A DNA stretch of 64,000 nt, taken from Zanthoxylum bungeanum (taxonomy: Eukaryota > Streptophyta > Magnoliopsida > Sapindales > Rutaceae). Made by a program: the position numbers and the translations under genes. Below, in pieces: positions 1 through 26,019 of the stretch (the stretch's first letter is position 1; the number at the start of each line of letters is the position of its first letter). Location of the stretch: the NCBI GenBank assembly GCA_019454045.1, contig SKCR01036778.1:62001-126000 (forward strand), in the 5' to 3' direction. The notes under the pieces were generated by a model, which was given only the letters and a program-made list of their open reading frames with translations, ran no database searches and was not told the DNA's origin.

Positions 1-1800
1 ACTGTGAAAGACAAAATATTTTCGAATTTGGAAGATATCATGCCAAAAAGTGATGAACCATCCAGATGTGTGTTGTGTATAATTATTAAAGTCATTTTCA
101 ATCATTTTTAAAGCAAAAAATAAATAATAAAAATTATCAAATCACCACCAAACATGATAAGCAATTAGTGGTGCAATTAATAATGGATTTGGTGGAGCAA
201 TTAGTGGACAAATTAATAATGGATTTGGTGGATGATTAGATGGAGGCAAAATTTTGCTTATAAATACCAAGCCATTTCATTTGTAAATTCATACTTTCTT
301 CTAAAGAATTCCTTAAGAATACTAAGAAGATTGTATCTTGTTTGTTTATTTACAGCTTTCAGTAATTAATTTCCGCTTTCGCACTTTCTTTTCTTTACTT
401 TTCAGTTTTTACTTTCCACAATTTACTTTTACGCACAATACTTTTCTTTCTTTAATTTTAAGTTTTTACTTTTCAGTAATGAGGAGGTAACTCCCCTTTG
501 CTGGGGTAAAAGGTAAAACTTTTATCACTAATATTTAGATTAATATACATTAATTATAATATATAAACTAGTTAAAACCTGACTTAACGAGGATACTGCC
601 ATATGGGTCGGTTGGTAATTATTTAAATTGGTTTTAACCTGACTAAACTGGATACCGCCTGATTGGTCGGTTGGTAATTAATTATTAATTTGACTTAATC
701 TGGATACCGCCTATATGGCTGGTTGGTAATTATCATGCAAAGTTAATATATTATATTAAGGGAGATATCTAAAATAGAAGTAATAAAAGTGGATCCTTTT
801 ACCTCATCATTTTTTTTATTGTATTTTTACTTTATTTACTTTTCAACAATTTACTTTCAGCATTTACTTTTCAGCAATTTACTTTCAACAATTTACTTTC
901 AGCATTTACTTTTCAATAATTTACTTTCAACATTTACTTTTCAGCATTTAATTTTCAGTATTTAATTTCATCATTTACTTTCTGTCATTTACTTTTCAGC
1001 AATTTACTGTTCGACATTTTACTTTATGTCTTTTATTTTATTTAAGTTTTTACTACCTGTAAATATGTGTCGTAACTAAGCCTGTTATCTGGGGTTGTGA
1101 TGGAATCCAATACCACTGGTTCATAAGGGGTTATTTTATAGTTTGGGTAATTTAAAAGTTTACTGATTAAGTCTTAAGCTTAATGCGTCTTGTTAATTGG
1201 CCACTAATAAGATTGATCTGGTAAATCTAAAATAAACTTGACAAAGGAATGTTAGGTTTCAGCCTTAGACTTAATAGCCCACGATCTTCCTTGAGGATAG
1301 ATAACCCTTTAATAGATTTCCTTACAGGATAGACATATACATGTCGAGCGGGGGTAGCCATAATTGGAACTTAAACTTAATGAATCCAGGTAATTTGGTT
1401 GACATAGAAATATGGTTCAATTGGGTTAAACTGGGTATTTGCGTCTGACCATCGATAAAGGCTTTTGCATAATCTCGTGTTCCAGGTTAGTAAACCAATT
1501 TATTACACAAACATGAAATAACCGCTTCATCTTTTAAAAGATATTAGAAATATTCACAACCCTAGATAGTTTCCTAATATTGAATTTTCTTAAACCTACT
1601 TTCGTGCAATTTTATTTACTTGTTTTTAAATTTAGAATCAACACCATTTCAAATCAATCAAACAACCTGTTAGATACTAGTAATCATTTGACCTCATAAA
1701 ATTAATAGATTAGGTATTAAGTCCTCGTGGGATCGATACTTTTATACTACTTGAACGATACGTGAGCTTGCATTATATGCGTGTAATTACGCACCGGTCA
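1..1800 (+). repeat. 5' LTR of element B (left part outside window)
   Basis: This stretch matches the B 3' LTR (16891-18655) and, reversed, the A LTRs. It ends in CCGGTCA directly before the primer-binding site. The window opens several hundred bases inside the LTR, so the TGATGAGCGG start is not visible. The LTR contains a TATA-like box near 259. It also holds an imperfect tandem block at about 570-740 built on CGGTTGGTAATT, and a run of CTTTTCAGCAATTTA-type units at about 830-1010. Confidence 0.9.
259..265 (+). promoter_or_regulatory. Probable TATA box of the B 5' LTR
   Basis: TATAAAT lies in a conserved context (AAAATTTTGC-TATAAATACC) that recurs in the B 3' LTR near 17293 and in both A LTRs. 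This is the expected core promoter position for the U3/R boundary, but no transcript data are available here. Confidence 0.55.
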
Positions 1801-1907: not shown

Positions 1908-2462
1908 GTGTTTGAGGTTCTCAGAAACTACATGAGACGAACCAGAAGCTTTGAACTCCGACCACTTGACCCAGAAATTGAAAGAACCATCAGACATTTG
2001 AGAAGGGAAAGCCGTGAAGACCAAGAAGCTTTAGTCAATATGGAACCCGAACCTTTGGAAGTTACACCATCGATACCCATTCGAGACAGAACCATTCCGG
2101 TGGTCGACGACTTTATTTCTTGTATTGTACTTCCTCCTTTACCAACAAATACGTGTGACATCAAAACATTCATCCAGATGATTCAGCAGTCAGTACAGTT
2201 TGGGGGAAATGTAACTGAAGATCTTAATTCCCACATCAGCAACTTTCTGGAAGTTTGCGGTACTTTTAATTACAACCGAGCAGCTGAAGAAGTAATGAGA
2301 CTGCGTGTTTTTCCATACTCCTTGAAGGACAGAGCTAAAGCTTTGCTACATTCACTACCAGCAGGTTCTATCACAACTTGGAACACTCTAGCCACCAAAT
2401 TCCTTGCAAAGTACTTTCCACTAGCCAGAACTGCAAAGTTGAGGAATGACATCACATCCTTC
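1908..2462 (+). pseudogene. gag: gag N-terminal part of element B
   Basis: This is the N-terminal half of a Ty3/gypsy capsid protein, about 185 residues. The hallmark is the retrotransposon gag core near residues 130-185: RLRVFPYSLKDRAKALLHSL, then SITTW and FLAKYFP. The position of the start ATG seen in element A is GTG here (1908). The first remaining in-frame ATG is at 1932, so initiation is probably impaired. The frame is open up to the insertion point of element A, and the same protein resumes at 11840 after the duplicated target site. The break is therefore a secondary transposon insertion, not an old truncation. Confidence 0.92.
2458..2462. other. Left target-site duplication of element A
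   Basis: CCTTC abuts the LTR terminus of element A. The right-hand partner at 11835-11839 is CCTTT. The uninterrupted equivalent of this site survives inside A's own gag near 9345, where CATCCTTTGTAC reads through. One base has changed since insertion. Confidence 0.85.
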
Positions 2463-4293
2463 TGACCGGCGTAAACACACACGTATAACGCAAGCGCACG
2501 TATCGTTCAAGTAGTATAAAAATATCGATCCCACGAGGACTAAATATCTAATCTATTAATTTTATGAGGTCTAATGATTACTAGTATCTAACAGGTTGTT
2601 TGATTGATTTGAAATGGTGACGATTCTAATTTTAAAATCAAGTAAATAAAATTATTCGAAAGTAGATTTTAAGAAAATTCAATATTAAAAACTATCTAGG
2701 GTTGTGATTTCTTCCAATATCATTTTAAAGATGAAGTGGTTATCTTAAAGTTGGGTAATATATTGATTTATTAACTGGAACACTAAATTATGTGTAAGCC
2801 TCTGTCGATGGTCAGACACAAATACCCAGTTTAACCCAATTGAACCATATGTCTATGTCAACCAAATTATCTGGATTCATTAAGTTTAAGTTCCAATTAT
2901 GGCTACCCCCGCCCGACAGGTATATGTCTATCCTGTAAGGAAATCTATTAAAGGGTTATCTATCCTCAAGGAAGATCGTGGACTATTGAGTCTAAGGTCT
3001 TAAACTTAAAATCCCTATGTCTAGTTCATTTTAAGTTTCCCAGTTCAATTTTATTAATGGCCAGTTAATGAAAAAGCATTAAGATTAAGACTCAATAAAT
3101 AAATCTTTAAATTACCCAAACTATAATTTAACCCCTTATAAACCGGTGATATTGGATTTCATCACAACCCCAGATAACTGGCTTAGTTACGACACATATT
3201 TTTCGGTAGTAAAAAAAAATTAAATAAAATAAAAGACATTAAGTAAAATACTGAAAATTAAATATTGAAAATTAAATGCTGAAAAGTAAATGCTGAAAGT
3301 AAATGCTGAAATTAAATACTGAAAATTAAATGCTGAAAAGTAAATGCTGAAAGTAAATTACTGAAAAGTAAATGCTGAAAGTAAATTGCTGAAAAGTAAA
3401 AGCTGAAAGTAAATTGCTGAAAAGTAAATGCTGAAAGTAAATTGCTGAAAGTAAATTGCTGAAAAGTAAAAACTGAAAATTAAAGAAAGAAAAGTACTGT
3501 GCGTAAAAGTAAATTGCGGAAAGTAAAAACTGAATAGTAAAGAAAAGAAAGTGCGGAAGCGGAAATTAATTACTAAAAGCTATAAATAAATAAACAAGAT
3601 ACAATCTTCTTAGTATTCTTAAGGAATTCCTTAGAAGAAAGTATGAATTTTACAAATGAAATGGCTTGGTATTTATAGGCAAAATTTTGCCTCCATCAAA
3701 TCATCCACCAAATCAATTATTAATTGCTCCACTAATTGCTCCACTAAATCTATTATTAATTACTCCACTAATCTTTTATCATGTGCGGTGATGATTTGAT
3801 AATTTTTATTATTTATTTATTAATTTATTTTTTTTGCTTTGAAAATGATTAAAAGTGATTTTAATAATTACACACAACACACTTCTGGATAGTTCATCAA
3901 TTTCGGGCATGAAATCGTCAGAATTTAAAATTATTCTGTCTTTCAAAGCTGTAGATATTTGAGTCTGCTTTAATCTGGAATTTGAATCAGCTCAATCCGA
4001 TATTGGAGTAAAAAGTTATGCCCAAACTACAACAGATGCGCAAAACTGGAATTTCTAAAACTGCACTTCGTCAAAAACGCCCTTTCAAGTTTCCAATCTC
4101 CAAAATTAAAATATCAAGTCCAATAATTGCCCTTATTTGACCCATATTTCATCCTAAATGATTTCATTGAGACCCGATATTATTTTATCTGAAAAATAAA
4201 ATAAAACACATCAAAACGTTCATCAAACCCGAGAAACTAAACAAAATATTAAGTTAAAGTGGCGGTAAATATTGATATATTTTCCGCTCATCA
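2463..4293 (-). repeat. 3' LTR of element A
   Basis: It is near-identical to 10005-11834. The end nearest the polypurine tract is TGATGAGCGG in reverse complement and the outer end is TGACCGG on the plus strand, giving TG...CA termini. It holds an expanded array of 14- to 19-bp units related to GCTGAAAAGTAAAT at about 3240-3480. It lacks the CGGTTGGTAATT block present in the B LTRs. A TATA-like box is at about 3671-3679. Confidence 0.92.
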
Positions 4294-4310
4294 CACCCCC
4301 AAACCTAACA
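4294..4310 (-). other. Polypurine tract of element A
   Basis: The reverse complement TGTTAGGTTTGGGGGTG lies immediately upstream of the 3' LTR start. The same G-rich tract precedes the B 3' LTR at 16875-16890. This is the expected primer for plus-strand DNA synthesis. Confidence 0.8.
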
Positions 4311-5602
4311 TTTTTCTAGTCCTGAGCAAAACAACAAAATAAAATACAAGAAACAATTAAATTAAACTAAGCCACTTTCGTAGAGATCACAGTTGCATTT
4401 AGCATATGCAACAAGCCTTTAAACCCTTAGGTGTCCCTAGTGGACGAGTTATAGTCTCGTGAGGGCTTACAGCAATGATACCCACAAAAATTTTGTAAAA
4501 GTAAAAAGGTAGTGAAACTAATGCACACAAAAGCAAAAAGACAAGCGGAAAGAGAATAAAGAAGTTAGTGACTAATTAGGTGAAACTTCTACTCCAAGTT
4601 ACTAGTTGTTTTGTTTCTTTTTAAATTACTGAATAAGTAAATTCTCCGATTATATTTACCATTCTTCATATACACAACCAACATAATATTAAACAACTCA
4701 TTTTTGCCCACAACAGTCATAAGTGCAGTTGATAAGAGAGTAATATTTTTCTCCTAAAGTTTTATCAGATTTCACACCTTTTTGCAGCAATGGAATAATT
4801 TTTCAGATTTTTCAGATTTTTTTCTTTATTTTTTATTTATATACAATATCTTCCATCTATGTAACGAGTGTTGGGTCGGTGGTTCCCAAACCAGTTGGCT
4901 TTAGGGCACCAGGCATTAAGACACCCCTAAGGACTTAATTACTCAGACTTCAGATATTTTTGCAGCATCTTTGATCCATGTAGCGAGCTTTGGGCCAGTG
5001 ACTCCCAAACCAGTTGGTTTTAGGGCACTAGGTGTTAAAACACCCTTACAGACTTAATAACTCGGATCTCAGATGTTTTTTGTTTTTTTTTACCCCATTA
5101 CTTTTTGAGATGCTTCCTCCAATTAAACTAGAGCACTGAATATTACAAACTTTTCAATTTTAACTCATGTTCGTATATTACTATGCATGTTGATAATAAC
5201 TGCTAACTGAGCATATAAAGATCTATTTTAGTCCGTTTTATGGAGAATTTACAAATTAAATAATTTAAAAGGAAATAAACAAAAATTAACTTATTTCGAA
5301 AATAGGCTTGAGATACTTCTCAGGAGTGGAAACTCATTACTCAGCTATCTCTTACCAATTTCACATTTTTAGTCAAAAACAAAAACAAAAACGCAAAATA
5401 TTTTTGTAATTTTTGAAAAATTTTCAATTTTTTTTGTATTTTTCGAATAATTTTGGACTAAAAAATAAAAATAACACACAAACTAAAAACAAGGTACTGA
5501 TCAACTAATTGCTTCCCCCAAACCTAAATGAGACATTGTCTTAAACAGTAGAAGAAGAGTTTAGAAGATAATACCTGGTTAGCTGAAATTCTATATGAAA
5601 AG
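4311..5602 (-). other. Long 3' noncoding region of element A
   Basis: No coding potential is visible between the LOG stop codon and the polypurine tract. The region is AT-rich with long A and T runs near 5340-5470. It corresponds closely to 15561-16874 in element B. It contains the duplicated block listed at 4852-5075. Confidence 0.75.
4852..5075. repeat. Imperfect tandem duplication, about 120-bp unit, in the A 3' region
   Basis: Two diverged units start near 4852 and 4972. They share the order ATGTARCGAG, TTGGG, CCCAAACCAGTTGG, TTTAGGGCAC, then ACACCC and ACTTAAT. The same pair occurs in element B at about 16090-16330, so the duplication predates the split of A and B. Confidence 0.8.
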
Positions 5603-6256
5603 TTAAATATTAAGATCCAGATTAACACGACTCCTCTTACCATGATCATCATCGGACCAATTTATCTTTGAAATGATAGGGTCAACTTGTGGTTCATAGG
5701 TTAAGAGTTGGTCTATTAGATCTGGAGCAGTTCTGGCAGTAAAGATGAGTTCTTTTAAAGGTTTTGACACGAACCCATTTCTCCGAGCATCATCAAGAAA
5801 CACACAAAGAAAATCATAAAATCCATCAACGTTGAACAGTCCAAGCGGTTTCTGGTGTATGTTCAGGTTCGCCCAAGATAATACTATAAAAAATTCCTCC
5901 AATGTGCCCAAGCCACCTGGCAAAGTGATAAAAGCATCAGCACAGTTAATCATTTCTACCAATCGTTCAGACATACCTGGCACGATTAGTTCATCTCAAT
6001 TTGATGATCCAATAAGATTTGCCTCTGCCAAGGGTTTTGGGATGATTCCCAAAATGTGACTGCCTCCTTCTTGTACGGCTTTTGAAACGATCCCCATAAG
6101 TCCAAGATTACCCCCGCCATATATTAAGTGCATATTCCTTGCAGCTAAGACTCGACCTAATTCCTGTGCTGCTTCTACATATTGTGGCTTAGTACCAACA
6201 CTACTACCGCAAAACACACAGATGTTTTCAACTCGTCTTCTCGAAGCGGCTTATAT
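5603..6256 (-). pseudogene. LOG-type cytokinin phosphoribohydrolase carried by element A, inactivated
   Basis: LOG enzymes remove ribose 5'-phosphate from cytokinin nucleotides to release active free-base cytokinins. This copy spans 218 codons including the stop and has no intron. It keeps the LOG fold signatures: ICVFCGSS near the N-terminus, YGGGNLGLMG, the Arg in GMSER, and PGGLGTLEE. Three lesions relative to element B are visible. The start codon is ATA instead of ATG (6254-6256), codon 2 is TAA (6251-6253), and codon 87 is TGA where B has GGA (5996-5998). It has exactly the length of the B copy with no indels, at roughly 80% protein identity by eye. It lies in sense orientation between the Cys-rich ORF and the 3' LTR. 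The C-terminus reads NLDLNI. It almost certainly makes no full-length enzyme. Confidence 0.9.
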
Positions 6257-6511
6257 TTTTTATATGTATTTCTTTCTCAACTCTGGATGCCTTCAAAAGT
6301 GCAATGACGACTGAATTTATAGTTCCTGAAAAGGGTGAGTAAAAATAGCACAAGTATCTTCCAGAGGATGATTAGTAGCGAAATAATATCGTGATAGTCA
6401 AAAAGGTCTGGATCATGTCGGAGAAAATAAAAGAAAAAAAAAAAATCACAATTATTAAGAAAAGACAAATAGATATAATATTTACAAGAAAAGAAACGGT
6501 TTGATTGACGT

Positions 6512-7060
6512 CTATGCGTCAGGGACAAGCTTCCCATCCAATTTTCTTATAAACTGGCAAACAGGGTCTTTTTGAGTCAGATTCCCAAGACTTAATTGTT
6601 GTCTTTCTTTTTGGAATTGTGTATGTAATTTGCGAATGGCTATGTGAACATATCCACTGGTATGCGTCTCAAGAGTTGAAGATATATCATCTAAAGACTC
6701 CTTACTCAAGCCATCCCTAATGAATTTAATTTTATCTTCGCGATTATCAGACACCATTCCTAAAGAATGACAATGAGTATTACAATTCCAGCGTGCACAT
6801 TTGTAACAAACACCCATTTGTTTAGCTCTACGTTTCTTTGCATAGGTGCTTCTTCCAAAACCAGGCAGATGTGAAATAAAAGAGTCAGAAGACTCACCTG
6901 CCAATCGGACTCGTGCTTCAATTACCCAACGAATGTCAGTAGGAATACCTTTGATCATCAGTAATCTCATTCGTTCCAAGCGAGATTTGTAGAATTTCAT
7001 CAGAGATTTTTGAGGGAGAGAAGGAAATTGCTTGTGAAGATTTGCGAGAGCTTCTTCCAT
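6512..7060 (-). CDS. Unrecognised Cys-rich ORF downstream of integrase (element A)
   Basis: This intact 182-codon frame starts at the ATG at 7060, which begins MEEALANLHKQFPSL. I do not recognise the family. Visible features are a basic N-terminal half, a Cys cluster of spacing C-x2-C-x4-C-x3-C (CYKCARWNCNTHC) near the middle, and a charged C-terminal half ending LVPDA. No signal peptide or membrane segment is evident. It sits where Athila-type elements can carry an env-like ORF, but nothing here shows it is an envelope protein. A pyrimidine-rich tract ending TTTTTGCAG lies just upstream of the ATG in both A and B, so it could be translated from a spliced RNA. The four Cys are kept in the damaged B copy. 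It could be a captured host fragment or an element-specific protein. Confidence 0.6.
   Translation of the reverse strand: MEEALANLHKQFPSLPQKSLMKFYKSRLERMRLLMIKGIPTDIRWVIEARVRLAGESSDSFISHLPGFGRSTYAKKRRAKQMGVCYKCARWNCNTHCHSLGMVSDNREDKIKFIRDGLSKESLDDISSTLETHTSGYVHIAIRKLHTQFQKERQQLSLGNLTQKDPVCQFIRKLDGKLVPDA
6892..6900 (-). promoter_or_regulatory. Consensus 5' splice-donor sequence inside the Cys-rich ORF (A)
   Basis: The minus strand reads CAG|GTGAGT, a full match to the plant donor consensus. It is conserved in element B at 14291-14299. Whether it is used is unknown. Confidence 0.4.
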
Positions 7061-7231
7061 CTTGAAATGTCTTAATCTGCAAAAACTAAACACACAAAAT
7101 TAAATCATACCAAATCACAATATATACACAAATTGCATGGGTTGCCTCCCTGCGAGCGCTAAGTTTAAAGTCGTCAGCCAGACTTGACTTCTCAAACGTT
7201 AAGCTGGATCTGAAAGTGTAACACTTTCTTT

Positions 7232-7640
7232 TTATCGCTCAAATGATTCTCCCCAGTAGTGCTTGACACGCTTGTTTTTAACCTTGAAAGTCTTGTTGCA
7301 GTCAGGATCATGTATCTCAATGGCTCTATTTGGTAAAACTTTGGTGATCACAAATGGACCTGACCACCGTGATTTTGGCTTCCATTGGAAGAATTTCACC
7401 CTTGATTTGTTTAACAGTACCTTTTGCCCTGGTTCCAGTTGTATGCGTACTAACTTTTCATCATGTCTTTTCTTGCCCTTTTCTTTGTACAATTTGGCAT
7501 CCTCAAAAGGCTGATTGTGAAATTCCTCCAATTCATTGAGCTGGTGGAACTTTTTCTCTTATGTTGCTTGTAGTGCAAGAATTGGCTTCTTCAGTACCAA
7601 ATACGTTTTATCTTTAGGCTCCACAGGCAATTGACATGTT
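7232..7640 (-). pseudogene. Integrase C-terminal remnant of element A
   Basis: The product is the C-terminal DNA-binding end of a gypsy integrase. Visible motifs are QLNELEEF, AKLYKEK, EPGQKVLLNKSRVK, the GPF turn in SRWSGPFVITKVLP, and a final VKHYWGES. The catalytic DDE core and the zinc-binding N-terminus are absent. The remnant is joined to retropepsin sequence through LKTCQLP, and the same junction occurs in B. An in-frame stop lies near 7561. Downstream, at about 7135-7160, is GGGAGGCAACCCATGC in reverse, found at the same place in B (14040-14056), a marker often seen after pol in Athila-like elements. Confidence 0.85.
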
Positions 7641-7660
7641 TTAAGTTTGTCAGTAGAACT

Positions 7661-9897
7661 TTACATTGTATTGGAGTTCTGAATGGTACTGTGTATCACA
7701 TCAAGTCTGAAACATTCCTCCTTCTTTTCATCATCTGGGAAATTCATGGCCTTGAAAACATTGAATGTTACTTCTTGGTCCTGTACCCTCATGGTTAATT
7801 CTCCTTTTTGTACATCAATAATGGTTCGACCTGTAGCCAACAATAGTCTCCCGAGGATGATTGGCACGTCTGCGTCTTCCTCCATAACAAGGACAATAAA
7901 ATCTGCTGGGAAAATAAATTTGTCAACCTTGACCAGCACATCTTAAACTACACCTCTCGAAAATATGAGCGTTCTATCAGCAAGTTGTAGTGAGACTGAA
8001 GTTGGCATTGTTTCTCCAATCTGTAATTTCCCGAAAATAGAAAAAGACATCAAGTTAACACTCGCACCTAAATCACACAGAGCCTTACCGAAGTCATGTT
8101 CTCATATGGTGCAAGGAACAGTGAAACTGCTAGGATCTTTCAACTTTGGGGGAAGTTTCCTCTGAATGATAGCGCAACATTCTTCTGATAATGCTACTGT
8201 CTCATAATCTCCCAATCTCCGCTTTCGTGAAAGAATGTCTTTCATGAATTTGGCATAGCTGGGCATTTGTTCCAACGCTTCTGCAAATGGAATGTTGATA
8301 TGCAGCTTTTTGAACACCTCCAAGAATCGAGCAAATTGCTTGTCCAGTTTATTCTTCTGAAGACGCTGAGGAAAATATGGAGGTGGAGTGATCTGTTTTT
8401 TTTCCTCCATCTGTTGCTTTGTTTCTTTTGGAAAATCTTCAATTATTGTTGCCTTGATTCCAACATCTTTGTTGATTTCAGTAACGCTTTTTAACATGAT
8501 GGCATAACATTGCTCCTTCCCCATGTTCCTTGGATTTGGCTCTGTGTTGCTAGGAATGGTACCTGGCGGTCTGTAACTCTGAGCATTTGCCAGTTGTCCA
8601 ATTTGATTCTCCAGTGCTTTAATAGAAGCTGATTGACTTTGAATTAATGCTGCTTGGGATTGAAACTTAGCATCATATCTTGCTGCTTGAGAGTCGTGTT
8701 TGCTTCTATCTTTTTCAAGTGGGTCAACACTTCTGTTATTCCTGGTTCATTTGCATGTTCCTGGCTTTTGTTATGTTGTTGGAATCCGGGTGGTGGATTG
8801 TTCATTTCCCCTGAATTGTTGCTCCATGCGAAATTGGGATGATTCTTCCAACCTGGGTTGTAGGTGTTGGAATATGGATTGTTCCCATGTCTGTTGAAAT
8901 TATTAACATAATTCACCGTTTCTTTATATTGGTTGAAAGATTCTGACTCAGGTGCTCCTCCAAATGGTGAACTTGTGGATCTACCATTAACTTTTATGTT
9001 AAGAGTTTCCAGATTTTTACAAATCACATCCAGCTTGGAATTCAGTGCTGTGTTGGCTCCAACTTCATAAATTCCTGCAATTCTTTGGATCATGCTCATT
9101 TCTGTTGGACATAAAGAATTGTTGTTGGCCATTTCTTCGATTAGGTCCCAGGCTTCATCTTCTCCTTTTGCCATCAAGGCTCATCCAGCAGCAGCATCGA
9201 TTGTGGTTCTCATTATTCCAGAAAGTCCATTATAGAATGTTTGGACTTGAAGCCATTTTAGAATCTCATGGTGAGGACATTTCCGAAGAAAATCTTTGTA
9301 CCTTTCCCAAGCTTCGTACAGAGATTCTGAATCTTATTGTACAAAGGATGTAATGTCATTCCTCAGCTTTCCGGTTCTGGCTGGTGGAAAATACTTTGCA
9401 AGGAATTTGGTGGCTAAAGTGTTCCAAGTTGTGATGGAACCTGCTGGTAGTGAATGTAGCCAAGCTTTTGCTCTGTCCTTCAAGGAATATGGAAAAAATC
9501 ACAGTCTCATTGCTTCTTCTGATGCTCTATTGTAGTTGAAAGTGCCGCAAACTTCCAGGAAGTTACTGATGTGGGAATTAGGATCTTCAGTTGCATTCCC
9601 CCCGAACTGAACTGACTACTGAATCATCTGAATGCATGTTTTGATGTCACACGCATTTGCTGTTAAGGGAGGAAGTACAATACAGGAAATGAGTATGTCA
9701 ACCATCGGAATGGTTCTGTCTTGAATGGGAATCGGTGGTGCAACCTCCAACGGTTCAGGTTCCATGTTAATGATTGCTTCTTGGCCTTCTCGCCTTTCCC
9801 TTCTCAACTGTCTGATGGTTCTTTCAATTACTGGGTCAAGCGGTCAGAGTTCAAAGCTTCTGGTTCGTCTCATGTAGTTTCTGAGAACCTGAAACAT
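7661..9897 (-). pseudogene. gag-pro: gag-retropepsin of element A
   Basis: The frame starts at the ATG at 9897 (MFQVLRNYMRRTRSFEL). It covers the gag core (KDRAKAWLHSLPAGSITTW at about 9400-9480), an Asn/Pro-rich linker (8880-8750), and the retropepsin active site DLGASVNLM at about 8055-8085. It ends with the C-terminal protease lobe (IILGRLLLATGRTIIDV, 7800-7850). Several in-frame stops and frameshifts interrupt it, for example near 9840, 9615, 9335 and 9180 and between 8660 and 8530. It is therefore not translatable as one protein. Comparison with B shows the original was one long gag-protease frame. Confidence 0.88.
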
Positions 9898-9980
9898 AAA
9901 AAAACAAAAACAATTAGTAAAAAGAAATTAGATACAAGTAACGTATCTAACCCCTAAACTAATAGTAAAAGTTAAATAAG

Positions 9981-9998
9981 ACCCCGGCAACGGCGCCA
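9981..9998 (-). other. Primer-binding site of element A (tRNA-Asp type)
   Basis: The minus strand reads TGGCGCCGTTGCCGGGG followed by T, where a perfect tRNA-Asp complement would have A. It begins six bases inside the 5' LTR. Confidence 0.85.
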
Positions 9999-10004
9999 AA
10001 AACT

Positions 10005-11834
10005 TGACCGGCGTAAACACACACATATAACGCAAGCGCACGTATCGTTCAAGTAGTGTAAAAATATCGATCCCACGAGGACTAAATATCTAATCTATTA
10101 ATTTTATGAGGTCAAATGATTACTAGTATCTAACAGGTTGTTTGATTGATTTGAAATGGTGACGATTCTAAATTTAAAAACAAGTAAATAATATTATTTG
10201 AAAGTAGATTTTAAGAAAATTCAATATTAAAAACTATCTAGGGTTGTGATTTCTTCCAATATCATTTTAAAGATGAAGTGATTATCTTAAAGTTGGGTAA
10301 TATATTGATTTATTAACTTGGAACACTAAATTATGTGTAAGCCTCTGTCGATGGTCAGACACAAATACCCAGTTTAACCCAATTGAACCATATGTCTATG
10401 TCAACCAAATTATCTGGATTCATTAAGTTTAAGTTCCAATTATGGCTACCCCCGCCCGACAGGTATATGTCTATCCTGTAAGGAAATCTATTAAAGGGTT
10501 ATCTATCCTCAAGGAAGATCGTGGACTTTGAGTCTAAGGTCTTAAACTTAAAATCCCTATGTCTAGTTCATTTTAAGTTTCCCAGTTCAATTTTATTAAT
10601 GGCCAGTTAATGAAAAAGCATTAAGATTAAGACTCAATAAATAAATCTTTAAATTACCCAAACTATAATTTTACCCCTTATAAACCGGTGATATTGGATT
10701 TCATCACAACCCCAGATAACTGGCTTAGTTACGACACATATTTACGGGTAGTAAAAAAACTTAAATAAAATAAAAGACATAAAGTAAAATACTGAAAATT
10801 AAATACTAAAAATTAAATGCTGAAAAGTAAATGGTGAAAGTAAATGCTGAAATTACATACTGAAAATTAAATGCTGGAAAGTAAATGCTGAAAGTAAATT
10901 ACTGAAAAGTAAATGCTGAAAGTAAATTGCTAAAAGTAAATTGGTGAAAAGTAAAAGCTGAAAGTAATTTGCTGAAAAGTAAATGCTGAAAGTAAATTGC
11001 TGAAAAGTAAAAACTGAAAATTAAAGAAAGAAAAGTACTGTGCGTAAAAGTAAATTGCGGAAAGTAAAAAATGAAAAGTAAAGAAAAGAAAGTGTGAAAG
11101 CGGAAATTAATTACTAAAAGCTATAAATAAACAAACAAGATAAAATCTTCTTAGTATTCTTAAGGAATTCCTTAGAAGAAAGTATGAATTTTACAAATGA
11201 AATGGCTTGGTATTTATAGGCAAAATTTTGCCTCCATCAAATCATCAACCAAATCAATTATTAATTGCTCCACTAATTGCTCCACCAAATCCATTATTAA
11301 TTGCTCCACTAATCTCTTATCATGTTTGGTGATGATTTGATAATTTTTATTATTTATTTATTAATTTTTTTTTTTTGCTTTGAAAATGATTGAAAGTGAC
11401 TTTAATAATTACACACATCACACTTCTGAATGGTTCATCAATTTCGGGCATGAAATCGTCAGAATTCGAAATTATTCTGTGTTTCAAAGCTGTATATCTT
11501 TGAGTCTTCTTTAATTTGGAACTTGAATCAGCTCATTCCGATATCGGAGTACAAAGTTATGCCCAAAATACGACAGATGCGCAAAACTGGAATTTCCAAA
11601 ACTGCACTTCGTCAAAAACGCCCTTTCAAGTTTCCAATCTCCAAAATTAAAATATCAAGTCCAATAATTGCCCTTATTTGACCCATATTTCATCCTAAAT
11701 GATTTCATTGAGACCCGATATTATTTTATCTGCAAAATAAAATAAAACACATCAAAACGTTCATCAAACCCGAGAAACTAAACAAAATATTAAGTTAAAA
11801 GGGCGGTAAATATTGATATATTTTCCGCTCATCA
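10005..11834 (-). repeat. 5' LTR of element A
   Basis: This partner of 2463-4293 has TG...CA termini. The minus-strand start TGATGAGCGG is at 11834 and the end CCGGTCA is at 10005. A TATA-like box is at about 11212-11218 on the minus strand, followed by the GCTGAAAAGTAAAT array at about 10790-11010. Confidence 0.93.
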
Positions 11835-11839: not shown

Positions 11840-13477
11840 GTGCAACAAGATTCAGAATCCCTTTGCGAAGCTTGGGAAAGATTCAAAGATTTACTCAGGA
11901 AATTTCCTCATCATGAGTTCACAAAATGGCTACAAGTCCAAACCTTCTACAATGAACTTTCTGGAATAATGAGAACCACAATTGATGCTGCTGCTGGAGG
12001 AGCTTTGATGGCAAAAGGAGAAGATCAGGCCTGGGACTTAATTGAAGAAATGGCCAACAACAATTCTTTATGGCCAACATAAAGGAGCATGATCCAAAGA
12101 ATTGCAGGAATTTTTGAAGTTGGAGCCAACACAGCACTGAATTCCAAGCTGGATCAGATTTACAAAAATCTGGAAACTCTTAACATGAAGGTTAATGGTG
12201 GATCCACAAGTTCACCATTTGAAGGAGCACCTGAGTCAGAATCTTTCAACCAACATAAAGAAACGGTGAATTATGTCAACAATTTCAATAGACAGAGGAA
12301 CAATCCATATTCGAACACCTACAACCCAGGGTGGAGGAATCATCCCAATTTCGCATGGAGCAACAATTCAGGACAAATGAACAACCCACCACCTGGATTC
12401 CAACAACAGTACAAAGGCCATGAGCAGATAAATAAATCAAGAATAACAGAAGTGTTGACCCACTTGAAAAAGATAGAATCAAAACACGACTCTCAAGCAT
12501 CAAGATATGATGCTATGTTTCAATCCCAAGTAGTATTAATTCAAAGTCAATCAGCTTCTATTAAAGCACTGGAGAATCAAATTGGACAACTGGCCAATGC
12601 TCAAAGTTACAGACCGCCAGGTAACCTTCCTAGCAACTCTGAACCAAATCCGAGGAACATAGAGAAGGAGCAGTGTCATGCCATCATGTTAAGCGGTACT
12701 GAAATCAACAAAGATGTTGGAACCAAAACAACTGCTGAGGAAGTTCCAAAAGGAACAAAGCAACAGATGGAGGAAAAAGAAGCAAAGGAAAAAGAACAGA
12801 TCACTAATCTTCCACATTTTCCTCAGCGTCTTCAGAAGAATAAACTAGACAAGCAGTTTGCTCGATTCTTGGAGGTGTTCAAAAAGCTGCATATCAACAT
12901 TCCATTTGTAGAAGCGTTGGAACAAATGCCCAACTATGCCAAATTCATGAAAGACATTCTTTCACGAAAGCGGAGATTGGGAGATTATGAGACAGTAGCA
13001 TTATCAGATGAATACAGCGCCATCATTCAGAGAAAACTTCCTCCAAAGTTGAAAGATCCTGACAGTTTCACTGTTCCTTGCACCATAGGAGAACATGACT
13101 TCGGTAAGGCTCTGTGTGATCTAGGTGCGAGTGTTAACTTGATGTCTTTTTCTATTTTCAGGAAATTGCATATTGGAGAAACAATGCCAACTTCAGTATC
13201 TCTACAACTTCCTGATAGAACGCTCGTATTTCCAAGAGGCGTAGTTGAGGATGTGCTGGTCAAGGTTGAAAAATTCATTTTCCCAGCAGATTTTATTGTC
13301 CTTGATATGGAGGAAGACGGAGACGTGCCAATCATCATCGGGAGACCATTCTTGGCTACAGGTCGAACCATTATTGATGTACAAAAAGGAGAATTAACCA
13401 TGAGGGTACAGGTTCAAGAAGTAACATTTAATGTTTTCAAGGCCATGAATTTCCCAGATGATGAAAAGAAAGAGTAA
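11840..13477 (+). pseudogene. gag-pro: gag C-terminal part and retropepsin of element B
   Basis: This continues the gag frame interrupted at 2462 and stays in one frame to 13477, broken by a single TAA at 12080-12082 where A has GAA. The second section is a 462-codon open stretch from 12089. It contains an Asn-rich linker (NPYSNTYNPGW), a KNKLDKQFARFLEVFKKL segment typical of the gag-protease linker, the retropepsin active site DLGASVNLM (GAT at 13118, residue 344 of that stretch), and the C-terminal flap and lobe motif IIIGRPFLATGRTIIDV. No CCHC zinc knuckle is evident. Apart from one stop and the nested insertion, it is better preserved than the A copy. Confidence 0.9.
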
Positions 13478-13534: not shown

Positions 13535-13987
13535 TCTACTGACAAACTTAAAGCATGTCAATTGCCTGTGGAGCCTGAAGATAAAACGTCTTTTGCACTG
13601 AAAAAGCCAATTCTTGCACTACAAGCAACAGAAGAGAAAAAGTTCCACCAGCTCAACGAATTGGAGGAATTATACAATCAGCCTTTTGAGGATGCCAAAT
13701 TGTACAAAGAAAAGGCCAAGAAGAGACAGGATGAGAAGTTAGTGCGCATACAACTGGAACCAGGGCAGAAGATACTATTAAACAAATCAAGGGTAAAATT
13801 CTTCCCATGGAAGCCAAAATCATGGTGGTCAGGTCCATTTGTGATCACCAATGTTTTACCAGACATAGCCGTTGAGATAATGATCCTGACTCCAACAAAA
13901 CTTTCAAGGTTAAAAAAAAACGTGTTAAGAACTACTGGGGAGAATCATTTGAGCGACAAAAAGAAAGTGTCACACTTTCAGATCTAG
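13535..13987 (+). pseudogene. Integrase C-terminal remnant of element B
   Basis: The retropepsin linker (DKLKACQLP) passes directly into the integrase end (VEPEDKTSFALKK, QLNELEELYNQ, EPGQKILLNKSRVK, GPFVITNVLP). The junction is the same as in A, so RT, RNase H and the integrase core were lost in a common ancestor. A frameshift near 13880 shifts the final segment out of the YWGE frame. Confidence 0.85.
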
Positions 13988-14130: not shown

Positions 14131-14711
14131 ATGGAAGAAGTTCTCGCAAATATTCACAAGCAATTTCCTTCTCTCCCTCAAAAATCTCTGATGAAAGTCT
14201 ACAAAGCTCGCTTTGAACAGATGAGGTTACTGATGATCAAAGGTATTCCTACTGACATTCGTTGGATTATTGAAGCAAGGGTCTGATTGGCAGGTGAGTC
14301 TTCTGACTCTTTTATTTCACATCTGCCTGGTTTAGGAAGGAGCACCTATGCTAAAAAGAGAAGAGCCAAAAGAATGTGTGTCTGTTATTAATGTGCTCGT
14401 ATGTTTTGTGATACTCGTTGTCGTTCTTTAGGAATGGTGTCTGATAACCGCGAAGATAAGATTAATTTCATTTGGGATGATATAGCTAAAACTCTTGAGA
14501 CGCATCCCAGTGGATGTGTGTATCACGAGATTGGTGTGTTATACGCACAATTCCAAAAGGAAAGACAACAGTTAAGTCTCGGGAATCTAACTTAAAAAGA
14601 CCATGTTTGCCAATTTATAAGAAAATTGGATGGGAAGCTTGTCCCTGATGCATATACGTCAATCAAGCCGCTACTTTTCTTGTACATATTATATCTCTTT
14701 GTCTTTTCCTA
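14131..14711 (+). pseudogene. Cys-rich ORF of element B, damaged
   Basis: This is the counterpart of the intact frame at 6512-7060, in the same order between the integrase remnant and the LOG gene. It starts at the ATG at 14131. A CGA to TGA change (14284-14286) stops it after about 51 codons, and further stops follow near 14388 and 14593. The four Cys of the cluster remain (CxxCxxxxCxxxC pattern near 14385-14420), and a short in-frame deletion lies near 14480. The A stop codon is TAT here, so the frame would extend into a hydrophobic tail ending at 14711. Function is unknown. Confidence 0.6.
14291..14299 (+). promoter_or_regulatory. Consensus 5' splice-donor sequence, conserved between A and B
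   Basis: CAGGTGAGT matches the donor consensus at the same position as in element A (6892-6900). Acceptor-like tracts follow before the LOG gene: TTTTCTCCGACAG ending near 14757, and ACCCTTTTTAG ending near 14855. The second is also present in A as ACCCTTTTCAG. The combination suggests a spliced transcript that would place LOG downstream of an intron, but this is inference. Confidence 0.4.
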
Positions 14712-14906: not shown

Positions 14907-15560
14907 ATGGAAGCCACTTTAAGAAGACGAGTTGAAAACATCTGTGTGTTTTGCGGTACTAGTGTTAGTGTTAAGCCACAATACGTAGAGGTAGCACATG
15001 AATTGGGTCGAGTCTTAGTTGCAAGGAATATGCATTTAGTATATGGCGGAGGCAATCTTGGACTTATGGGGATCGTTTCAAAAGCTATACAGGAAGGAGG
15101 CAGTCACGTTTTGGGAATCATCCCAAAACCCTTGGCAGAAGCAAATATTATTGGACCATCAAACGGAGAGGAACTGATCGTGCCAGGTATGTCTGAACGA
15201 CCGGTAGAAATAATTAACCGTGCTGATGCTTTTATTGCTTTGCCAGGTGGCTTGGGTACATTGGAGGAAATTTTTACAGTATTATCTTGGGCGAACCTGA
15301 ACATACACCAGAAACCGCTTGAACTGTACAACATTGAAGGATTTTATGATTTTCTTTGTGTGTTTCTTGATGATGCCCGGAGAAATGGGTTCGTGGCAAA
15401 ACCTATGAAAGAATTCATCCTTAGTGCCAGAACTGTTCCGGATCTAATTGACTAAATCTTGGCCTATGAACCACAAATTAACCCTATCCTTTCAAAGATA
15501 AATTGGTCTGATCACGATCGTGGTAAGAGGCGTCGGATTAATCTGGATCTTAACCTTTAA
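14907..15560 (+). pseudogene. LOG-type cytokinin phosphoribohydrolase carried by element B (premature stop at codon 183)
   Basis: The family converts cytokinin riboside 5'-monophosphates to free-base cytokinin plus ribose 5-phosphate in the cytosol. The frame opens with ATG in a good plant context (AAAACATGG). It encodes ICVFCGTS (12-19), YGGGNLGLMG (46-55), the conserved Arg in GMSER (94-98) and PGGLGTLEE (113-121), so the nucleotide-binding and catalytic motifs are complete. A CAA to TAA change at 15453-15455 would end the protein at 182 residues. Without it the frame continues to 217 residues and ends INLDLNL. Plant LOG proteins are usually about 200-240 residues, so the copy is essentially full length. 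Host LOG genes normally contain several introns and none is present here, consistent with capture from an mRNA. A 182-residue product might still fold, but that is unproven. Confidence 0.9.
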
Positions 15561-18655: not shown

Positions 18656-19791
18656 TACATGCAACAGCCTGACGGTTTTGTCGGGTCAAAACATGCAAAC
18701 AAGGTTTGCATGTTAAATCGATCCATTATAGATTGAAGCAAGCATCGCGTTCTTGGAACCAACATTTTGATGAGATCATAAAAGAATATTGTTTCATTCA
18801 AAACTAAGATGATTCTTGTGTATATAAGAAGGTTAGTGGGAGAGCACTGATATTCATTGTCCTTTACGTTGATAATGTATTGCTTATTGGCAATGACATT
18901 CCCATGCTACCATCGATGAACGCTTGACTTTCATGAAAATTCTCCATGAAAGATCTGGGAGAAGCAGCCTTTATTCTGGGAATTAGGATCTACCGGGATA
19001 GATCTAGAAAGCTGTTTGGACTCTTCCAGAGCTCGTACATTGACAAAGTGTTGAAAAGATTCAACATGGATCAGTCTAAGAGGGGGCTGCTTCCAGTGTC
19101 ACATGACGTCTCTCTATCTAAGGACATGTGTCCTAAAACTTAAGATGAGAGAGATAACATTAGTCAAATCATGTTTTCTTCTGCAGTCGGATCGATCATG
19201 TATGCCATGATATGTACACGACCTGATGTCTCATATGCTTTGAGCATTTGCAGTCGCTATCAGGCCGATCTAGGTGATGGTCACTTGTTTGCTGTTAAGA
19301 ACATCCTTAAGTATCTTAGACGATCTAAGGATGCTTTCACAGTATATGGAGATGGAGAACTTGAGGTGACTGGGTTCACCGACGTAAGTTTCCAATCCGA
19401 TAAAGATGACACTAAGTCACAATCTGGGTACATATTTTATTTGAACAACGGAGCATTGAGCTGGAAATCTTCCAAGCAAGAGACTGTTACCTATTCAACA
19501 ACAGAAGTGGAATATATCGCTGGAGCTGAGGCAGCAAAAGAAGCAGTTTGGATCCGTAAATTCCTAATTGGATTAGGAGTAGTTCTGTTAGCAGCTGAGC
19601 CCGTACCTTTGTATTGTGGCAATAACGGGGCTATAGCGCAGGTTAAGGAACCACGGTCTCATCAACGATCCAAGCATGTAATTCGATGGTTCCATCTGAT
19701 TCGTGAGATCATACATCGTGGCGATGTGAAGATCGAAAAGATCGCTTCAGATGACAACATTGCAGATCTGCTGACGAAAACTATATCTTAG
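18656..19791 (+). pseudogene. Ty1/copia RT-RNase H remnant of element C
   Basis: The segment encodes the C-terminal half of a copia polyprotein. It starts at YMQQPDGFV right at the B insertion point, then KQASRSWN, MKDLGEAAFILGIRIYRD and VLKRFNMDQSK, then RNase H motifs (TEVEYIAGAEAAKEAVWIRK, DDNIADLLTK). The RT catalytic box reads YVDN instead of YVDD (18865-18876). The RNase H motif CDNNGAIA reads CGNNGAIA (GGC at 19618-19620), removing a catalytic Asp. A 1-base deletion near 18730, several stops and a TAA at 19141-19143 break the frame. It is inactive. Confidence 0.92.
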
Positions 19792-19865
19792 TAAAATTTT
19801 GAGCGACATGTACATAGTTCATGTGTTAGATACTTGAGTGATTAGCTATGAGCCAAGTGGGAGAT

Positions 19866-21723
19866 TTTGGAAAATTATGACCCATAGCATCACTATTTAT
19901 AAAAGACATTGTGGTTTTTGTACAAATTAACTATGTGACAAAGAAAATTGCTATTTTATCATTTTGTAATTAGATTACTTGGATATATATAAATGATAAA
20001 AGTCTTTATGATTAGTTGTGGATTAATAAGATATGAGACAATATTAATCCACGAACGGTTTAATCATTAAATATCCATAGTCGTAGTATTATCGAGACTG
20101 GATATTGATAATGCAGAATAGACTAGTATTACACTTGTGCGCGTTATGGAAGCTTAACGGCATAGTTCTCATATATTTAAGTATTGGATACTTATGCAAG
20201 TGTGATAAGAGGTTCTGTTAGCCGTTGGACCGGGAACAACTTCGCTCTGGATAGACCCCTCGGAATCCTATTGGTAGTATGACTTTGTGTCTATGGGAAT
20301 CCGAATCAGGGTAGGTATATGTGGTATTAACCTGAGACAAGCATCGCTAAAACTGGCGACAATCAGTATGCTTTGGTTTTGGTCGTCCGGGGCTTTAACA
20401 GGTTATGTGTACACCTCTTCTGGGTTTATTGAGAATCGCAGTGTATTGGTTGTGATGTCAAGATGGAAGTATCACTTTAGTCATATGGAGATGATGATCA
20501 CACATGATACATAACTTGTACTCGTAAATGCTGCAGCTATCGGGATAATATGACTAGGTCATGATTATCAGATTACAGAGACTAGTTGCTAGTGATCTGA
20601 TATATGCTTCGTACAGGGCTGACACAATTCCAGCCCCAGGCCTAGCATGGGACATCAGATACTGGATCGTATTACGCAATACTTAGTATACTACGCCAGA
20701 TACATATTATATATTCCTCGTTGAATATTTCTGGAGAATTAGGTAGGCACGGTGCTTTGCTAAAAGCGAACCATGTCTTATAAATCGGTAAGAATGTGGT
20801 ACGAGGTACGCACGTGTTCGGATAGTCCGATGACCGTATTTACTGCCAACATATCCAGGGATCTCTTGGGTCGCTTCCCAAAGATTCACCGATGACATTT
20901 GACTCGAACAGAATTAATCTGGGATTAATTATGAGAGAGAAAATTAATCTGGGATTAATTATGGCAAGAATTTATCTGGGATAAAATTATAATAGAAGAG
21001 AGAGAGCGATTAATTTGGAATTAATCAATTAAATAATATATTGGATATATTAATTGAAATCAGATTTCAATGTGGAATTAAATTTGGATTTTAATTCGGG
21101 CGAACGAATTAATTTGGAATTAATTCGTAAGCGACTTTCGTAATAATTTTGCTAGGCATTATTATTTAATTAAGTTGAATTTAATTACGTCGCAATGGAA
21201 AATTTGTTTAATCGGATTAAACGAACCTGAGCCCGAAGTGTGTTCTCTAACCCAACTTGAATTTTGAATTTAAGTGGTGTGACCCACTACCTCACATCAA
21301 TTGTCACCAAACTTATTGAAGTAGATGAGAGCATTTAAAGAAACTTGCTCAACACACTTTGTCTTTTTATTTTTTGAAAAGATATACACCTTTTGGAAAG
21401 TCAGCTTGTTAATTAGTTTTAGGAACTAAAAATATCAAAACAACTTCAATCTCTCTCTTTCTCCCTTTGCCGTGAACATGGTTTTTCTTCTCTTTTGACT
21501 TTACTTCAAAAATCAAACAAGCTAGCACTTAAAGAGTCTTGTGAGGTGATAGGGAAACTCACCATTGGGTTTGAAAGATTCAACAAAGCTTGGAGCTTCA
21601 TCAACAAACAAATATTTTTGAAATCACATATATGTTCAATGTAAGTTTTTTCCGCAAACTCACTTGATCATTCACACACAATATCATGACTTAGAGACCT
21701 TGGACATGTCTAGGACACTAACA
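19866..21723 (+). repeat. 3' LTR of copia element C
   Basis: It follows the polypurine tract CCAAGTGGGAGA. The expected TGTTGG start is altered to TTTTGG by a small mutation. The sequence is homologous to the D and E LTRs (for example GACCCATAGC near the start and the TGGATAGACCCCTCGG segment). It contains ATTAATCTGGGATTAATTA-type repeats at about 20915-21060. It ends near ACACTAACA at 21723, where minus-strand integrase sequence begins. Confidence 0.82.
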
Positions 21724-23556: not shown

Positions 23557-24008
23557 TGATAAGTACGGTTTATACCCACTTATTCCTGCATTCACGGCTT
23601 ACTATTTTGTTAGATTCTATGTCATTTAATGTATTTTGTAGTTTTTTTATGTTTTATTGATATGAAGCATTGAAACATGGATCTTAGGGAAAATAGACTT
23701 GTTTTGGTACCTTACGGACGCATCAAAAGCATGCGGCAAATAAAAATATGCAGAATACACAATCTTGAAATTTTAGCATAAATAAAATTTTAAGTGTTTA
23801 ACAGATTTCAAGAATCTTCAGTTTTCAGAGTTTCAGACGCATAAGGAGTTCAGGACTTCCCAATTAATACATAAGCTCATCTTAAATCCTAAATAGGACG
23901 CTACGACACAACTAAAGAGTCCAAAACATAATTTTGGAGAGATCCGAAGAAAAAGATTAAAGAACGACAAGAAGAGACAAAGGCGGTGACATCCGAAGAT
24001 GAAAGGAT
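23557..24008 (+). repeat. LTR fragment H, left part
   Basis: At 23557 the copia gag homology ends and TGATAAGTACGGTTTATACC begins. This resembles the LTR start shared by the other gypsy LTRs here (TGATGAGCGG..., with a short inverted copy ACCCACTTAT). No coding sequence is seen. The stretch is interrupted by the solo LTR at 24009-26019 and resumes at 26025. Identity is tentative. Confidence 0.45.
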
Positions 24009-26019
24009 TGACCAGTGCTTACACACGCGTATAACGCAAGCACATGTATCATTCAAGTAGTATAAAAAGTATTGATCCCATGAGGACTTAATACCTAAGC
24101 TATTAATTTTATGAGGTCAAATGATTACTAGTATCTAACAGGTTGTTTGATTGATTTGAAATGGTGACGATTCTAAATTTAAAAACAAGTAAATAAAATT
24201 GTTCGAAAGTAGGTTTAAGAAAATTCAATATTAAAAACTATCTAGGGTTGTGAATTTTTCCAACATTATTTAAAGATGAAGTGGTTATCTTATAGTTGGG
24301 TAATATATTGACTTATTAACCTGGAACACTAAATTATGTAAAAGCCTATTCCGATGGTCAATTACAAATACCTAGTATAATCCAATTGAACCATATGTCT
24401 ATGTCAACCAAATTACCTAGATTCATTAAGATTAAGTTCCAACTTGGCTACCCCCGCCCGACAGGTATATTCCTATCCTATAAGGAAATCTATTAAAGGG
24501 TTGTCTATCCTCAAGGAAGATCGTGGGCTATTGAGTCTAAGGTCTTAAACTTAAAATCCCTATGTCTAGTTCATTTCAAGTTTGCCTAGTCAATTTTATT
24601 AGTGGCCAGTTAATAAAAAGCATTAAGATTAAGACTCAATAAATAAATCTTTATATTACCCAAACTATAATCTAACCCTTTATAAACCGGTGATATTAGA
24701 TTTCATCACAACCCTAGATAACTAACTTAGTTACAACTCATAGCTAGGGCTGGTAAAAATTTAAAAGACATAAAATAAAATTACTAAAAAGTAAATGCTG
24801 AATGATAAATGCAATAAAATAAAATGCTAAGGTAAAAGGAATTAACTTCTACTATTTACTATTTAGATATCTCCCATAATATAATATATATACTTGTGAT
24901 AATTTTCCCAACCAGCCATATAGGCGATAACCTGATTAAATCAAATTAAGTCCAACCAGCCATTAAGGCGGTAATATTTGTCCATAATCCAGCCATAAAG
25001 GCGGAACCAAAATAAACCAGCCATAAAATCGGAACCAATACCAACCGACCAATCTTGCGGTATCCTTGATTAGTCAGGTTTAAACCAGATTAAAATGAAT
25101 TACCAACCGACCAATCTGGCGGTATCCTTTTTAAGTCAAATTTTAAATAGTTTATATATTATATTAAAGGGAGATTAATCTAAATAGCAATAGTAAAAGA
25201 ATTACCTTTCACCCTAGCAGGGGGAAGTTACCTCCTCATGGTAAATAGTAAAAACTGTAAAAATAAAGAAAGTAAATTACTATTTTTACAAAACGTAATT
25301 AAAATTTAATGACAAAACTTAAATTAAAGAAACTAGAGAGAAAAACTCCCTATTTACATCAAAGAAATGAGAGAGAATGGTACAACTGAAACAGAAATCT
25401 TGAGCTCAATTTATAGGAATCCGTAGGGTCTGGGCGTCGCGACGCCAAGCCAGCATCGCGACGCGCGTTGATCTTTGACACGTGTTGTTTGGCTTGGCGA
25501 GATCGTGACACGTGGCACTGTTATGTCGGCCGTTGACTTTTTGATGTCGGCAACATGTGATGGCCACACGTGTCCATGTGCATTTTAGCGTGATCCGTTG
25601 AGATTTTGACATGTGGTAGATGCATTTTAGCGTAGATGATGATTGTCGGCATCTTAAGATGATGACACGTGGCATGCGCAAGTTAGCAGATCGGCTATGA
25701 TGGTGACACGTGGCACGGCGCACGTTAGCAAACTCAACTTTTCAGATTCTGACACGTGGACCAGGCGTACGTTAGCAAGGACTCGACGCACGTTAGGGGT
25801 CGCGACGCTAAGGGTTTAAACGTCGCGACGCGGATAAATTACTGAAATACCCTTTTTGCTAATTTCACTGTTTTGCTCCAAATCACCTCCAGAATGTCCT
25901 GAATCTTTATTTATCTACAAAATAACACAAAACACATCAAAATATTCACAAAGCTCAAGAAACTATACAAAATATTAGGTTAAATGAGTGGGAAATAGTG
26001 ATAGATTTACCACTCATTA
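24009..26019 (-). repeat. Solo gypsy LTR with near-perfect target duplication
   Basis: The sequence is homologous to the B and A LTRs over its outer part (TGACCAGTGCTTACACACGCG and the ATCGATCCCATGAGG-type segment) and over the AACCAGCCATATAGGCGG block (about 24910-25110). The minus-strand start reads TAATGAGTGG. There is no internal region on either side. The flanks are AGGAT (24004-24008) and GGGAT (26020-26024), a 5-bp duplication with one change. It probably arose by LTR-LTR recombination. Its U3 part differs from A and B and carries the G-box cluster. Confidence 0.82.
25477..25760. promoter_or_regulatory. Cluster of six ACACGTG (G-box/ABRE-like) motifs in the solo LTR
   Basis: GACACGTG or CACACGTG occurs at about 25477, 25507, 25565, 25664, 25705 and 25751. 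Several extend to GACACGTGGC, the ABRE/G-box core bound by bZIP factors. They sit in imperfect repeats with GCACGTTAGCA. Palindromic GTCGCGAC motifs flank the cluster (about 25435-25470 and 25797-25833). Function is inferred from sequence only. Confidence 0.5.

Follow-up and report, generated by a model that had tools for sequence, protein, structure and literature searches.

The occurrence of a YgdH domain in gypsy retrotransposons is reportedly in line with work by Steinbauerova in 2011. This domain, which belongs to the LOG family, is mentioned for gypsy consensus sequences from two species of Citrus and, when one filter was omitted, from Populus trichocarpa in the accessible text of PMC9289625, contrary to the original prediction for the DNA studied here, which knew of no description of a gypsy element with a LOG gene. 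The extra frames of plant retrotransposons are mostly without known function according to the available part of PMC7264820. In the literature searched, outside which most subscription papers lie, we found no description of selection on a LOG gene in gypsy elements or of a neighbouring gene for a protein resembling viral cysteine-rich proteins (CRP-like), and the mention found for lysine decarboxylase together with retrotransposons concerns genes in eccDNA-rich regions. LOG in gypsy elements is known in outline; what is new here is the selection result and the CRP-like neighbour.

The window, that is the whole stretch of 64,000 nucleotides of Zanthoxylum bungeanum DNA that was analysed, contains two gypsy elements of one family, A and B, nested one within the other as revealed by self-comparison of the window. 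Their features are the following:

1..1800, plus strand: 5' LTR of element B, the first part of which lies beyond the left window edge, as judged from the LTR of A
1908..2462, plus strand: gag start of element B, before the insertion of A (Retrotrans_gag PF03732, E 6e-9)
2463..11834, minus strand: element A, inserted in reverse into gag of element B, with LTRs at 2463-4294 and 10005-11834 (K2P 0.043)
5603..6256, minus strand: LOG-family gene of element A, which lacks its start codon and is interrupted at codons 2 and 87 by stops
6512..7060, minus strand: CRP-like gene of element A, an open frame with its ATG at 7060-7058, for a putative virus-type cysteine-rich nucleic-acid-binding protein
9982..9998, minus strand: primer binding site of element A, TGGCGCCGTTGCCGGGG, just inside the 5' LTR
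12089..13477, plus strand: gag-protease frame of element B after the insertion of A, assigned by position and similarity to Athila gag, with no Pfam match
13562..13987, plus strand: integrase C-terminal remnant of element B; reverse transcriptase (RT), RNase H and integrase core are absent directly upstream
14131..14652, plus strand: CRP-like gene of element B, disrupted by stop codons
14907..15560, plus strand: LOG-family gene of element B, interrupted in frame by a stop at codon 183; unbroken relatives have 217 codons
16891..18655, plus strand: 3' LTR of element B (K2P 0.058 against part of the 5' LTR, 1274 sites)

The two LTRs of element A are 96.2% identical. This element is flanked by the bases CCTTC and CCTTT, which would be compatible with a single 5-bp target duplication carrying one change, and the internal part of element B continues after it, beyond position 11834. 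At substitution rates of 0.7-1.3e-8 changes per site per year, the LTR divergences (A, 0.043; part of B, 0.058) would correspond to 1.6-4.2 million years. LTR-like sequences of the same family (about 79-90% over aligned pieces) were also observed at 24008-25279 and 39797-40988, with no LOG match at either position. Directly after the 3' LTR of B lies a retrotransposon copy (18662-21241) with relatives at 41866-44214, 50159-52440 and 57962-60249; judged from the motifs in the frame at 19171-19791, these copies look Copia-like.

Regarding the lineage, the primer binding site of element A is presumably of the tRNA-Asp type, which we take to be the Athila type, and the B frame at 12089-13477 would likewise be Athila-like, by its resemblance to Athila gag. 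The gypsy pol order RT-RNase H-integrase was seen in the frames of two copies found elsewhere in the genome (L012 and L013), the RNase H and integrase frames of L012 standing 104 bp apart. No second RNase H or chromodomain was present among the Pfam matches of the frames scanned. The absence of these two domains fits Athila by the lineage key in the accessible text of PMC6317226, in which Athila has neither.

The claim that positions 14907-15560 encode a LOG-type protein with two characteristic motifs is borne out by the translation, in which YGGGNLGLMG occupies residues 46-55 and PGGLGTLEE residues 113-121, and by the match of the 182-aa frame of B to PF03641 (E 7e-33). As also claimed, LOG has the same location at both loci: it follows the integrase C-terminal remnant, precedes the 3' LTR and is oriented in the sense of its element. 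The LOG sequences of A and B share 89.7% DNA identity; the same gene is therefore present twice, as proposed, but not as an intact frame of 217 codons, since both frames are broken. It should be noted that the LOG of element A is read from the minus strand, the plus-strand translation of 5603-6256 being noise. Upstream of LOG, when a spliced sub-genomic mRNA was considered, two possible acceptor AGs were seen, one of which is poorly conserved.

The LOG of B was then used as query in a six-frame search of the 3,956,113,105-base genome, which gave at least 149 places besides B. All of the 150 scored places (B included) are 85-100% identical over at least residues 2-181 of 182, and 127 of the 150 listed places, a list ranked by protein score, have no stop inside the match. 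A local duplication limited to two copies, the alternative that accompanied the original prediction, is ruled out by these further places. The proposal that the gene entered the gypsy family before A and B diverged and was then mobilised is supported. An Arabidopsis LOG query of the same genome gave at least 150 long matches at 47-50% identity. First-pass candidates, which are unverified and not copy numbers, amounted to 64,133 for LOG, 46,312 for the CRP-like frame and 6,387 for the 3' flank.

Fifty-five copies were examined, namely L002-L054 together with A and B (L001 is B and was left out of all counts). Forty-eight of them, all found via their LOG, had sufficient upstream DNA for structural typing: pol lies upstream in 13, pol is deleted in 27 and 8 have another structure. 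In the pol-deleted type, to which both A and B belong, the gag-protease frame stands close before the integrase C-terminus. Seven of the eight others (L029, L033, L037, L039, L041, L047 and L048) constitute a short type that has the LOG leader, LOG and the 3' part in common with A and B, in which tblastn found neither pol nor the CRP-like frame upstream. Gag-like frames occur in the three short-type copies inspected, with a zinc-knuckle-like motif recognised by eye in L047 and L048; the frame of L047 has no Pfam match of note. The eighth copy, L035, has no clear type. Pfam recognises the integrase in L012 and L013 and RT-RNase H in L012; in these two copies pol is split into several frames and LOG is whole. 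Three pairs of copies with identical LOG lie on different contigs (L017/L018, L027/L028 and L053/L054) and are probably duplicated contigs of the assembly.

Because the list is chosen by protein score, eight copies, taken from 40 places found by the 3' non-coding flank, were added. The flank is only 80 bp from LOG, and all eight contain LOG sequence. Open frames in the protein-ranked list alone were rejected as a gauge of selection, this list being biased by the score. A strict test of the whole LOG frame (ATGGA start, 218 codons and a single final stop) was passed by 22 of 53 protein-ranked copies and by none of the eight flank-chosen copies.

The selection test follows the logic of PMC9073684, whose accessible text predicts that N:S falls with frequency only if a product preferentially favours its own copy; variant frequency was used in place of a tree of element copies. 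Variants were split by the number of copies carrying them, stop variants being counted as N. Across 63 copies, N:S of LOG was 156:54 for variants found in one copy and 44:60 for those found in four or more (p 5.5e-8), a decrease of the ratio from 2.9 to 0.73. Similar decreases were obtained with 60 copies, one of each identical pair having been dropped (162:55 versus 40:59, p 7.8e-9), and with the 53 protein-chosen copies (130:53 versus 31:55, p 6.8e-8). When the frequent class was set at two or more copies, A and B with the eight flank-chosen copies gave 89:32 versus 29:28 (p 0.0038), and the latter eight alone 71:26 versus 18:24 (p 0.001).

One explanation would be that LOG is a passive passenger that spread and decayed neutrally after its capture, as the lack of a whole frame in both window copies and in all eight flank-chosen copies might indicate. 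This is very improbable, however, as the LOG frame is the only one in which N:S decreases as variants become more frequent: among the same bases read in the wrong frames, frame 1 shows no significant change (p 0.42) and frame 2 rises (161:51 versus 90:14, p 0.037), and in the eight flank-chosen copies neither wrong frame falls significantly (p 0.55 and 0.11). Moreover, 11 stop variants of the 63 copies occur in one copy and 11 in two or three, as opposed to none in four or more. The signal might also reflect the mutation spectrum, through decay of methylated cytosines in old copies, rather than protein function. Transversions alone gave no significant fall (84:31 versus 20:11, p 0.38, with few variants), and the non-coding flank shows a small fall in two of its three readings (p 0.69, 0.03 and 0.022), both of which are in keeping with such an effect. 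Yet the same bases show no fall when read out of frame, the fall persists without C-to-T and G-to-A changes (106:44 versus 22:25, p 0.0047), and LOG and the flank are unlike in their shared variants (235:92 for the three readings of the flank pooled; p 7.9e-8), so that we regard an origin in the mutation spectrum as extremely unlikely.

The CRP-like frame behaves in the same manner in 48 copies (160:40 versus 88:56, p 1.5e-4), with p 0.8 and 0.45 for the other two frames of this region. As yardsticks, gag-protease (25 copies) gave 306:96 versus 106:97 and the integrase end (48 copies) 124:32 versus 78:52. Among shared variants, LOG is also distinct from gag plus integrase (p 0.024), and on the same 23 copies these variants amount to 15:31 for LOG and 93:89 for gag-protease. 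Pooled dN/dS of LOG was 0.43 in the 10 copies that had not been picked by protein score (codon-model omega 0.58) and 0.245 in the 53 others, compared to 0.33 for gag-protease, 0.39 for the integrase end and 0.67-0.71 for the flank control; it was 0.44 for the CRP-like frame and 0.86-0.88 for its other frames. By dN/dS, the constraint on LOG is comparable with that on gag and integrase, not stricter. In most copies, the LOG tail (window positions 15525-15557 in B) ends with GKRRRINLDLNL, which we take to resemble a nuclear signal and an EAR-type repression motif. The N:S of this tail goes from 40:11 to 11:8 (stop variants omitted), and the constraint on it looks weaker. Taken together, these data show that LOG and the CRP-like frame are under purifying selection during copying. 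LOG is indeed carried by the element, but cargo, as it had been called, is too weak a word because of this selection.

The CRP-like frame, of about 181 aa, is located between the integrase and LOG; the original prediction on LOG makes no reference to it. In element A, its translation (6512-7057) matches Carla_C4 (E 1.8e-7, 31.5 bits, cut-off 20.9) and Viral_NABP (E 2.1e-6, 28.3 bits, cut-off 23). A script found 33 copies with the hallmark motif in an open stretch of at least 100 aa. A genome search with this frame gave at least 150 places, all 150 scored being at least 92% identical, and several of them adjoin listed LOG places (contigs C9648 and C33947; C41828 and C38689). An alignment of the CRP-like copies had no relative in a collection of viral contigs. 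The basic stretch and cysteine motif could produce a chance profile match, the frame then having no relationship with viral CRPs; the Carla_C4 match indeed spans just 35 residues, and the shorter frames of L012 and L013, which exceed the Carla_C4 cut-off, remain below that of Viral_NABP. Such an accident is nevertheless decidedly unlikely, given that the frame of A exceeds both cut-offs, that all 13 aligned open copies match both families (E up to 0.01), although these copies are close relatives and not independent, and that none of eight shuffled controls matches either family at E up to 1. According to the available text of PMC12172455, viral CRPs are silencing suppressors and pathogenicity determinants; those of mandariviruses possess a nuclear signal and a zinc finger, and that of chrysanthemum virus B is also a transcription factor causing hyperplasia.

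The LOG of the elements (retro-LOG) matches PF03641 and TIGR00730 above the curated cut-off, and its best solved relative is 2a33 (Arabidopsis At2g37210, E 2.7e-56). It scores 117 bits with the cytokinin-LOG model NF058542, against a cut-off of 300, these models being built for bacteria and archaea. In a tree of eight sequences, the four retro-LOGs included group on a long branch (0.63), apart from the two enzymes of Arabidopsis. The Corynebacterium LOG uses Arg99 and Glu122 for catalysis and has a prenyl site made of Met96, His97, Lys100, Glu125 and Trp129, the latter five residues being common to AtLOG3 (PMC4979012, accessible text). With residues matched by position in an ungapped alignment, the catalytic pair is kept, R98 being present in 61 of 63 copies (the other two have stops) and E121 in all 63, and the PGGxGTxxE motif is also present. 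Within the prenyl site, M95 is retained in 62 of 63 copies and W128 in L012; by contrast, the His is replaced by S96 (61/63), the Lys by L99 (56/63) and the Glu by T124 (I in 20/63), so that retro-LOG differs from the set of AtLOG3 at three of five residues. The conserved Arg and Glu together with the changed pocket suggest that the chemistry is probably kept and the side-chain pocket altered. Activation of cytokinin by retro-LOG is a possible but unproven function, because the prenyl-pocket residues differ from those of plant LOGs.

It could be argued that retro-LOG is a nucleotide-pool enzyme that serves the replication cycle and has no part in hormone signalling, in the way that some retroviruses carry captured dUTPases. 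Retention of the catalytic pair, when nearly all of the 63 copies have altered prenyl-binding residues, would agree with such a role, as would the selection pattern, which is that expected of a product helping its own copy, and a weak similarity to the PpnN nucleosidase, below the cut-off. On the other hand, we know of no plant retroelement with a nucleotide-pool enzyme of this kind. The bacterial LOG studied in PMC4979012 was, in the text available, assayed with AMP too, and a changed pocket is for that reason no proof of a new role. We consider this nucleotide-pool function unlikely.

To compare the gene of the elements with those of the host, a 32-aa canonical LOG piece was searched. Among the 150 listed places, 23 match it at 86-96% identity starting at residue 4-7, and the remaining 127, whose matches begin at residue 1 with 66-75% identity, resemble copies of retro-LOG. 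The match edge at residue 4-7 is as expected for an exon edge of host-type LOG. The host genes thus appear to be split by introns and the LOG of the element to be without introns, which supports the original prediction on this point and would be consistent with capture through RNA. LOG-like sequences on two contigs (C2730:2351-2518 and C42560:158915-159079; 68-69%, starting at residue 11-12 of a 66-aa piece) are unlike most of the matches listed for that 66-aa piece.

We read LOG and the CRP-like gene as accessory genes serving the element. The explanation that we favour, and hold to be probable as a whole, is that an Athila-type Ty3/gypsy family acquired a CRP-like gene and an intronless LOG, that both were kept working in source copies, and that LOG releases a cytokinin or related base. 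The two genes would have been gained between the integrase and the 3' LTR, LOG through RNA. They would have been maintained in the copies giving rise to new copies and would decay after insertion. Both proteins would be expressed from the element. Like the CRPs of viruses, the CRP-like protein may have RNA silencing as its target or act in the nucleus, and LOG may cleave a nucleoside 5'-monophosphate, thereby increasing the cellular level of active cytokinin or of a related base. This, in turn, could favour division or a meristem or germ-line state and hence help new insertions to be inherited. Of all parts, the hormone step is the least certain, and among the points against this explanation are that a hormone, which diffuses, is an unexpected product where selection acts on individual copies, and that many LOG copies are broken, as the strict test of the frame indicates.

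A more far-reaching proposal, which we offer tentatively and think possible rather than probable, is that a virus-type silencing suppressor and a hormone-releasing enzyme together form a two-gene host-control module of a selfish element, creating cells in which new copies are made and inherited. The two would then be accessory genes like those of retroviruses, but in a plant retrotransposon, and the CRPs of plant viruses and the second frame would descend from a common ancestor that passed between RNA viruses and retrotransposons. As two extra frames here combine recognisable domains with a selection signature, the role of such frames becomes testable. If LOG works, the mobile element represents many potential hormone genes, which it could supply to the host, or it could disturb the control of cytokinin. 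If the CRP-like frame suppresses silencing, a shared counter-defence gene would join plant RNA viruses and retrotransposons.

The family described here has likenesses to several known systems. In common with the plant LOGs 2a33 and 1ydh, to which L012 is 51% and 44% identical over 176 residues, retro-LOG belongs to the LOG family and has the catalytic Arg and Glu and PGGxGTxxE; it differs from them by its long branch and by three changed prenyl-pocket residues. With Athila elements having env-like or other extra frames that follow pol and precede the 3' LTR (PMC7264820, PMC6317226 and PMC11728184, all as far as accessible), it shares the lineage features and the position and sense of these frames, whereas enzyme and virus-type domains are recognisable here. 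As in the CRPs of carla-, allexi- and mandariviruses, the second frame combines Carla_C4 and Viral_NABP matches with a basic stretch followed by cysteines (PMC12172455, accessible text); unlike these, it is encoded by a retrotransposon. The gypsy elements of Citrus and Populus similarly harbour a LOG-family domain, to which the accessible text of PMC9289625 devotes one sentence that mentions neither its position nor selection nor any neighbouring gene. The same text describes Phalaenopsis gypsy elements that also retain a host-type enzyme as an extra frame, an AlkB-type RNA demethylase; that enzyme is a different one and was active in vitro, whereas the activity of retro-LOG is predicted from its sequence.
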